Source of the DNA: Halorubrum lipolyticum DSM 21995
GTDB lineage: Archaea > Halobacteriota > Halobacteria > Halobacteriales > Haloferacaceae
Length of the DNA: 64,000 nucleotides
NCBI RefSeq assembly: GCF_000337375.1
Contig: NZ_AOJG01000012.1
Span: 32,074-96,073 of the forward strand
Direction of reading: 5' to 3'
Positions 5,365 through 33,339 of the stretch are shown piece by piece. The notes beneath the pieces were generated by a model. It was not told the origin of the DNA and searched no databases. It saw only the letters and a list, made by a program, of their open reading frames with translations. A program made the translations under genes and the position numbers. Position 1 is the stretch's first letter. Every line of letters begins with the position of its first letter.

Positions 5365-5867
5365 GGGCCTACGAGCGCGTCGCGCCCCATGTATCCGACG
5401 GCTTCGGCGGGTCGTTCCGGGTCCCGATCGAGAAAGCGATCGGAAGCTAATCGTTTATAAATGATTGTGCGGTGGCGCGTGCCCGTGAGCGGCCGTCAGG
5501 CCGCGAACCGGCGCGCGCGAGGGAGTCGGTCGCCCGGAGCAACGCGGAGGGCGACCGACGAGGCTGGGGAGGTGTGAGGCTGCTGTGCGGTTGCGGGCGG
5601 GTGGGACTCAAAGGGGCAACCACGAGGCGGACGCAGGCGTTCACGAGAGCGGAGCTCTCGTGAGCCAATCAGAACGCGGAGCGTTCTGATGACGACGTAA
5701 GTACCGCAGGGAGCGAACGACGTGAGCGCCTGAGGAACGCAACGAGCGTGCGCCTCGTGGTTGGGGCTTTGGCGGTGTTCGCCGACGAGGAGTCGCTGTC
5801 CCCGTATACACACATCTCCACGTCCAATCGTCGGACCGCTTATTAGGCGCCGCTCGAACCCCAGTAC
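5365..5867. other. 503-bp intergenic region carrying repeat copy A
   Basis: No protein-coding gene is supported here; the short open frames are by-products of high G+C. The region holds a TTTATAAA octamer at 5454-5461, the structured repeat at 5469-5771, and near 5838-5847 a TATA-like CGCTTATTAG about 25 bp before the GTG start of the next gene. Confidence 0.8.
5469..5771 (+). repeat. Structured intergenic repeat, copy A (full length)
   Basis: It begins GCGGTGGCGCG and ends GGGGCTTTG. In order it contains: hairpin GCGGCC-GTCA-GGCCGC (5489-5504); hairpin with 11-bp stem 5525-5535/5549-5559; conserved GGCTGGGGAGGTGTGAGG; conserved GGGTGGGACTCAAAGGGGC (5599-5617); a long-range 12-bp stem AACCACGAGGCG (5618-5629) pairing with CGCCTCGTGGTT (5751-5762), closed outside by CAAAG/CTTTG; and inside that stem two perfect hairpins with GGA loops (5641-5663 and 5668-5690). 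The same plan recurs at 33058-33294 with different stem sequences, and in shortened form at 22055-22211. A TTTATAAA box sits 8 bp upstream, so it could be transcribed. Function unknown; either a non-coding RNA or a mobile structured repeat fits. Confidence 0.85.
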
Positions 5868-6525: not shown

Positions 6526-6597
6526 GGGCTCGTAGATCAGTGGTAGATCATCCCCCTGGCACGGGGAAGGCCCGGGGTTCAAATCCCCGCGAGTCCA
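6526..6597 (+). tRNA. tRNA-Ala (GGC)
   Basis: A complete cloverleaf can be drawn. The acceptor stem is GGGCTCG/CGAGTCC with G3-U70, the alanine identity pair. The D-arm is GATC-loop-GATC, and the anticodon arm is TCCCC-CTGGCAC-GGGGA with anticodon GGC. The variable loop is five bases, and the T-arm is CGGGG-TTCAAAT-CCCCG with discriminator A. CCA is not encoded. There is no intron. Its 3' end is partly repeated downstream at 6708-6721 and 6731-6761, as after integration and loss of an element that used this tRNA as its target. Confidence 0.97.
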
Positions 6598-21930: not shown

Positions 21931-22224
21931 ACGCGGTTTATAAAAGATCAGCTGATCGTTTATAAGTAGTTGACTGCGGATCGGCGTGGGGTTCCTGCAA
22001 AGCCCCAGCCCCTCGCTTATAATCGACTGACACTGACTCTCAGGCAAACAATCCCAAAGCCCCAGCCGCGCCGCGACGGCGTTTATAAACGCCGTCGCGG
22101 GCTCCCTCGCGGGCTCTCGCCGGCGGCTTCGCCGCCGGCTGTCAGAGAGACCTTCGGTCTCTCCCTACTCGCGGCCGCCGAGGGTGGCCGCTCGCAGGCG
22201 CGCGCCACCGCCATCTGTTCCGGA
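21931..22224. other. Palindrome-rich intergenic region with repeat copy C
   Basis: 294 bp between convergent genes. It holds TTTATAAA at 21937-21944, the palindrome GATCAGCTGATC at 21946-21957, TTTATAAG at 21959, an isolated repeat terminus CAAAGCCCC at 21998-22006, and the shortened inverted repeat copy C at 22055-22211 with several perfect hairpins. No protein gene is supported. Confidence 0.8.
22055..22211 (-). repeat. Structured intergenic repeat, copy C (shortened, inverted)
   Basis: Read on the minus strand it starts GCGGTGGCGCG (22211-22201) like copies A and B, has hairpin GCGGCC/GGCCGC (22171-22176 with 22186-22191) and ends GGGGCTTTG (22063-22055). The middle of the full element, including GGGTGGGACTCAAAGGGGC, is missing. 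In its place are perfect hairpins at 22145-22163 (8-bp stem) and 22119-22139 (9-bp stem), and a 30-bp perfect palindrome at 22071-22100 centred on TTTATAAA. It is best read as a deleted or rearranged copy. Confidence 0.75.
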
Positions 22225-33057: not shown

Positions 33058-33294
33058 GCGGTGGCGCGCGCCTGTGAGCGCCCGACAGGGCGCGAACAGC
33101 CCGTGCGAGGGAGTCGCGAACGAAGTGAGCGACGAGGTTGGGGAGGTGTGAGGTGCGGTCGCGGTGCGGTCGGGTGGGACTCAAAGGGGCAGCCGGCGAG
33201 GACGAAGGCGCGCGACGTAAGGACCGCAGGAACGAGCATTGCGAGTGACGAGGACCGCAACGAGCGCACCGAGTCCTCGCCGGCTGGGGCTTTG
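33058..33294 (+). repeat. Structured intergenic repeat, copy B
   Basis: Same plan as the element at 5469-5771 but 66 bp shorter. It starts GCGGTGGCGCG. Hairpin 1 is GCGCCC-GACA-GGGCGC (33078-33093). Hairpin 2 has a short stem GTCGC/GCGAC (33113-33117 with 33129-33133). The GGTTGGGGAGGTGTGAGG box follows, then GGGTGGGACTCAAAGGGGC (33172-33190). The long-range stem is AGCCGGCGAGGAC (33191-33203) with GTCCTCGCCGGCT (33273-33285), closed by CAAAG/CTTTG, and it ends GGGGCTTTG. Stem sequences differ from copy A but pairing is kept. Confidence 0.85.
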
Positions 33295-33339
33295 GAGGCC
33301 TTCACCGCAAAGGGATCAGTCACGTATCCGTCAGCGACC

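Follow-up and report, generated by a model that had tools for sequence, protein, structure and literature searches.

A dispersed haloarchaeal repeat with a covarying core that may be selected to fold as single-stranded DNA

Pneumococcal BOX repeats (boxA-boxB-boxC) are modular, interspersed sequences with a folded form and slow current spread, over-represented between convergent genes and infrequent outside Streptococcus pneumoniae and its close relatives (PMC3049150). Among haloarchaea, Haloquadratum walsbyi carries miniature inverted-repeat transposable elements (MITEs) and palindrome-associated transposable elements (PATEs), which are transposase-free, have inverted repeats or palindromes, reach high copy number and are linked either with a transposon family or with IS605-type ends (PMC3119063). 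The REP/BIME and ERIC repeats of enterobacteria are palindromic, lie outside genes and have folded forms, and a Y1-type protein is associated with REP elements. Haloarchaea also commonly carry the omega RNA associated with TnpB, which is structured and linked to transposons. Here we describe a structured intergenic repeat found in 64,000 nucleotides of Halorubrum lipolyticum DSM 21995 (contig NZ_AOJG01000012.1, positions 32,074 to 96,073; this whole stretch is the window, and coordinates are given within it).

The repeat shares with BOX elements all the properties listed above, including the preference for convergent genes, except that it belongs to an unrelated lineage and that its core, unlike BOX, is spread over an entire archaeal class and shows compensatory changes in its stems. 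It resembles the Haloquadratum MITEs and PATEs in its lack of a transposase, its inverted repeats or palindromes and its copy number, but no partner such as theirs was found for it, a distinction drawn from their description and not from sequence. The likeness to REP/BIME and ERIC is one of general form, likewise not drawn from sequence, and the Y1-type partner of REP is absent from the Halorubrum host genome. In descriptive terms the repeat is a BOX/ERIC-like interspersed repeat, with many short, modular, non-coding and folded intergenic copies.

We give an even chance to the interpretation that this is a haloarchaea-wide, non-autonomous dispersed repeat of MITE or BOX-like type, whose core is selected to fold single-stranded, most likely as the plus DNA strand. 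A sequence-only reading of the window had described two full copies with fixed boxes and paired stems. The boxes, the stems and the positions of both copies were all confirmed. As a count, two is too low, since the window holds a third copy and box GGGACTCAAAGGGG has 102 matches in the host genome (3.43 Mb in 41 contigs; at most two mismatches) versus one for a reversed-pattern control. The parts of copies A and B are:

5454 to 5461, plus strand: TTTATAAA, 15 bp upstream of copy A
5469 to 5771, plus strand: copy A, structured core of 5' domain, linker and 3' domain (covariance model match at 5660-5790, E 2.6e-12)
5565 to 5579, plus strand: box 2 of copy A, TGGGGAGGTGTGAGG
5599 to 5617, plus strand: box 3 of copy A, GGGTGGGACTCAAAGGGGC, with G tracts and the 5' strand of helix H
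5763 to 5771, plus strand: end box of copy A, GGGGCTTTG, with a G tract and the 3' strand of helix H
33058 to 33294, plus strand: copy B, structured core (covariance model match at 33176-33313, E 4.7e-25)
33139 to 33153, plus strand: box 2 of copy B
33172 to 33190, plus strand: box 3 of copy B
33286 to 33308, plus strand: end box of copy B and the conserved tail GGAGG..TTCACCGC

The start box GCGGTGGCGCG is located at 5469 in copy A and 33058 in copy B, and the end box of copy B occupies 33286-33294. Box 3 has two matches in the window (at most three mismatches) versus 0.00 expected by chance. Comparison of about 96 copies taken from the host genome reveals the order of parts. The 5' domain comprises P1, P2/P3 and a variable P4 hairpin, and is followed by box 2, a TGCGG-rich linker that varies, box 3 and helix H. 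Next come a G-rich internal loop (GGGGC opposite GGGG), the long stem P5, P6, P7 and the end box, with P7 built of 2-bp steps split by tandem G·A mismatches. GGGG stands after P5 in 244 of 256 domains, which were located without using GGGG. In most copies a TTTATAAA-like site precedes the start by 14 to 16 bp. It recurs 42 bp downstream of where the end box begins, and additional end boxes trail at 57-bp spacing throughout the genome. The element probably extends slightly past the right end first assigned to it, to judge from the conservation of GGAGGTGTTCACCG as well; the tail CACCGC could pair with GCGGTG of the start as a candidate closing helix.

The stems covary as had been proposed, at levels above both shuffled and slid controls. 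In the 3' domain of 21 host-genome copies, 91.9% of cells are paired, compared with 75.6% after shuffling and 31–41% when partners are slid, and 24 of 35 pairs show two-sided change. The 5' domain covaries similarly in the host genome, but its number of pair types is not above that of shuffles. Across genera (42 sequences, in an alignment fitted to the covariance model and so biased towards structure), two-sided change is seen in 30 of 35 pairs, with 387 such cells versus 128 shuffled, and sliding the partners lowers pairing to 31–39%. Helix H is a compact example, occurring as CAAAG/CTTTG, GAAAG/CTTTC, CGAAG/CTTCG and GGAAG/CTTCC. In P7 the tandem G·A positions hardly vary, if at all, even as the neighbouring pairs covary; the GGGG tracts stay fixed too, and so do the boxes, which are conserved throughout the class. 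The earlier suggestion of a selected single-strand fold is supported.

Pairing also persists at fixed genomic positions. At locus A a copy is present in 18 species with 10 different P5 arms, in which a mean of 10.9 of 11 positions are paired, and the 10 copies at locus B have nine arms; two copy-poor species lack the copy at locus B (L259, L275). In the synteny table, several entries marked as present proved to be spurious matches of the two-mismatch box to coding sequence, and these were excluded from use. The host genome has 30 copies with a perfect P5 of at least 18 bp, and these have 28 distinct 18-bp arms, 26 of them unique. Since most of these stems are private to single copies, gene conversion alone is not their source, and it was rejected in that role. 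Some exchange does occur: modules are common to different copies and even to different positions of the element, and one ortholog of copy B has the same 5' half with a different 3' half. On this evidence the stems stay paired in place while their sequence turns over, and copying between copies cannot be the only reason for it.

The repeat has also moved. In one species (G226), an insertion of about 640 bp lies between two genes; it is made up of a core copy enclosed by nested inverted repeats and is missing from four species in which the flanks are 92–95% identical. Mobility was thus real at least once, which supports the earlier option of a non-autonomous mobile element. The presence of a core copy within a lineage-specific insertion with nested inverted repeats makes the family MITE-like; it is no more than a candidate member of a MITE family, since neither a target duplication nor a partner transposon was found at the sites examined. 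The same nested inverted repeats (TGAKCGATAGCGGGAGTRGGTAT with an outer GGGATC..GTTGAAAYCCT) surround some core copies of the host genome (for example L438 1501-1984 and L444 1501-2040). The inverted repeat was found in only 28 of 52 Halorubrum genomes and is absent from many copy-rich species. Nested inverted repeats also stand as lone ends after ordinary genes. In the subset of repeats examined, no transposase lies beside lone terminal repeats other than one tnpB (1720-2640 of L463, G000:C34:48500-53500), about 250 bp upstream of a lone end at 2889. This is the only transposon gene seen adjoining a lone end and its position is probably due to chance. TnpB proteins are present, but, in contrast to omega RNA, no core copy adjoins any of the 30 tnpB loci examined, and a TnpB guide RNA was rejected on this basis. 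The tnpB search returned three partial inner-hairpin matches, all far from tnpB.

Several results weigh against a mobile repeat that folds as single-stranded DNA. No target duplication was seen at the G226 insertion, the sole insertion examined, where the flanking gaps are too diverged to give exact ends, and recognisable inverted repeats lie on both sides of only 16 of 96 host-genome copies. The best full-length pairs of host-genome copies are only about 83% identical, which indicates no recent burst; an automatic pair count also lists one pair of more than 90% identity, which was not inspected. The Y1 transposase (PF01797) is absent from the host genome and from ten other Halorubrum species, several of them copy-rich, and mobilisation by an IS200/IS605 (Y1) system was rejected for this reason. 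A scan of 135 neighbouring proteins found ordinary or housekeeping genes, with no transposase among the families listed. The orientation of neighbouring copies is random (35 same versus 28 different), giving no replication-strand signal, and a bias with replication direction was accordingly dismissed. Finally, G·T outnumbers A·C in P5, counted in copies mostly from Halorubrum (82 to 21, with 30 of the 82 at one position), and in P7 (7 to 1).

The excess of G·T over A·C in Halorubrum P5 is what a structured non-coding RNA family would lead one to expect, in which all copies would be transcribed into RNAs that fold and act in cis or in trans. We consider this explanation doubtful. G·U is usually favoured in RNA helices, and the strong covariation with fixed boxes and the maintenance of copies at orthologous sites agree with it too, as does the RNA fold of copies A and B, which beats all shuffles; the RNA and DNA readings both beat nearly all shuffles. 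Across genera, however, wobble is not favoured: G·T and A·C occur in 24 cells each of 1390, and in 12 each in the 5' domain. The hairpin loops of P7 are GNA triloops in 111 of 166 cases, with 19 GNYA and four GNRA tetraloops, the reverse of the host 23S rRNA, in which a similar search found nine GNRA, three GNYA and one GNA (a small control). In DNA, mini-hairpins closed by GNA or GNNA loops have extraordinary stability (PMC4686876). Transcription from a TATA site at -16 to -14 would be expected to start inside P1. Copies beside tandem genes show no sense preference (13 same versus 18 opposite), copy number spans 0 to about 187 within the genus and Rfam has no match. The strict Watson-Crick pairing across genera and the GNA/GNYA loops favour a fold of one DNA strand, whereas the surplus of G·T in a single Halorubrum stem still allows for an RNA. 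The original choice between an RNA and structured DNA now leans, and no more than leans, towards DNA. The strand asymmetry of the loops and of the G·A mismatches points to one strand and not to a symmetric cruciform. We tentatively suggest, as a possibility on the weaker side, that these are class-wide sites in the chromosome where selection acts on a single-stranded DNA fold, always of the same strand, and where compensatory change has kept the fold in place for as long as the genus has existed. The fold would contain GNA/GNNA mini-hairpins, helices of 2-bp steps split by tandem G·A mismatches and a G-tract internal loop.

Genomic context bears on two further explanations. With genes called by a home-made gene caller, and with a few scaffold-split copies counted twice, 52 of 92 host-genome copies are flanked by convergent genes, 31 by tandem and nine by divergent genes. 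Convergent gaps make up only 18 of 163 control gaps (odds ratio 10.5, p 1.3e-14). This enrichment, together with very long residence at the same sites, conserved G tracts and ordinary housekeeping neighbours, would suit a site in the chromosomal DNA that serves the cell where convergent genes end and that never had, or has lost, its mobility, for example an insulator, a replication or recombination site, or a G-quadruplex or hairpin binding site. Such a site is unlikely, given that copies are missing or nearly so from some otherwise normal Halorubrum species, that a recent composite insertion exists, and that BOX repeats share the convergent bias without an essential job (PMC3049150). The chromosome-organising role once suggested for the element is neither shown nor excluded; the full copies A and B in the window both sit between divergent genes, the minority context, while most copies are convergent. 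The other account dispenses with selection and has the stems paired solely through template-directed correction of quasi-palindromes and gene conversion between copies. The shared modules and the ortholog with only the 5' half of copy B speak for it, but we regard it as very improbable: correction should also erase the tandem G·A mismatches, yet these hardly vary between the pairs that covary. Most long P5 stems, moreover, occur in one copy only, and the boxes are conserved throughout the class. We favour selection acting in place, as palindrome correction that is blind to the fold would wipe out the G·A mismatches. For the dispersed repeat that folds as DNA, we propose that the plus strand would fold when exposed as a single strand in replication, recombination or transposition, that an enzyme or other protein acting in trans may recognise the fold and the boxes, and that selection would keep resident copies foldable alongside the exchange of modules between them.

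Covariation is normally taken to prove that an RNA is functional. In this family the types of loop and the absence of a wobble preference across genera suggest that it can also mark folded DNA, and if the single-stranded DNA reading is true, a functional structured-DNA element would have been identified by covariation in the way that non-coding RNAs are. The family offers natural replicates, with about 100 copies per genome in dozens of species and the same site occupied by different stems. It could be used to test whether folds of single-stranded DNA are selected in chromosomes, and could show by what means dispersed repeats last when no enzyme for them is apparent.

The repeat is widespread in the class. 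When one mismatch at most is allowed, the box is found in 261 of 391 genomes (0 to 187 copies each), and the covariance model of the 3' domain matches 156 of 212 genomes and 56 of 68 genera, with no match outside Halobacteria in the sampled archaea of the phylum. Named relatives carrying the exact box are almost all Halorubrum. The other genera that were read retain the 3' domain, some with a related 5' domain and some with two domains head to head. In four loci of other genera (L346, L353, L355, L360), paired 3' domains lie head to head about 30–50 bp apart and form one large inverted structure. Copy-poor species within Halorubrum include G369, G347, G310 and G013; comparison of their gene content with that of copy-rich species could reveal a partner protein. 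A plasmid origin was rejected on finding only six plasmid records with partial similarity, and a viral origin on finding no phage match, with 15 viral-contig pattern matches left aside.

No named family matches the repeat, as had been supposed. The sole Rfam 15 match in the window is a tRNA gene at 6526-6597, downstream of copy A, and nothing was returned for copy B up to an E value of 5. A description of the repeat was not found in the open-access literature, the scope of a search that lay outside subscription literature and ISfinder, and the family is apparently, and provisionally, undescribed. It would need masking or annotation in analyses of haloarchaeal genomes.

The third copy in the window, which the sequence-only reading did not see, was found by the covariance model and is followed by a tail unit:

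22055 to 22211, minus strand: copy C, internally deleted
21998 to 22006, minus strand: solo end box GGGGCTTTG, exactly 57 bp past the end box of copy C

In copy C the 5' domain and a P4-type hairpin are fused straight to the end box, and everything from box 2 to P5 is deleted. Five other species have copies with the core box at the site orthologous to it.

Some features of the assemblies affect these counts. Tandem duplicates 89–90 bp apart (L007, L034, L038, L058) slightly inflate the copy and context numbers; they look like scaffolding artefacts, with an N separating them where read. Stretches duplicated around a single N within repeats (L007, L038, L049, L005, L433, L449) are probably of the same kind. 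Beside locus B in one species, the contig (L280, G209:C14) has AGATGTGTATAAGAGACAG, which looks like leftover sequencing adapter.
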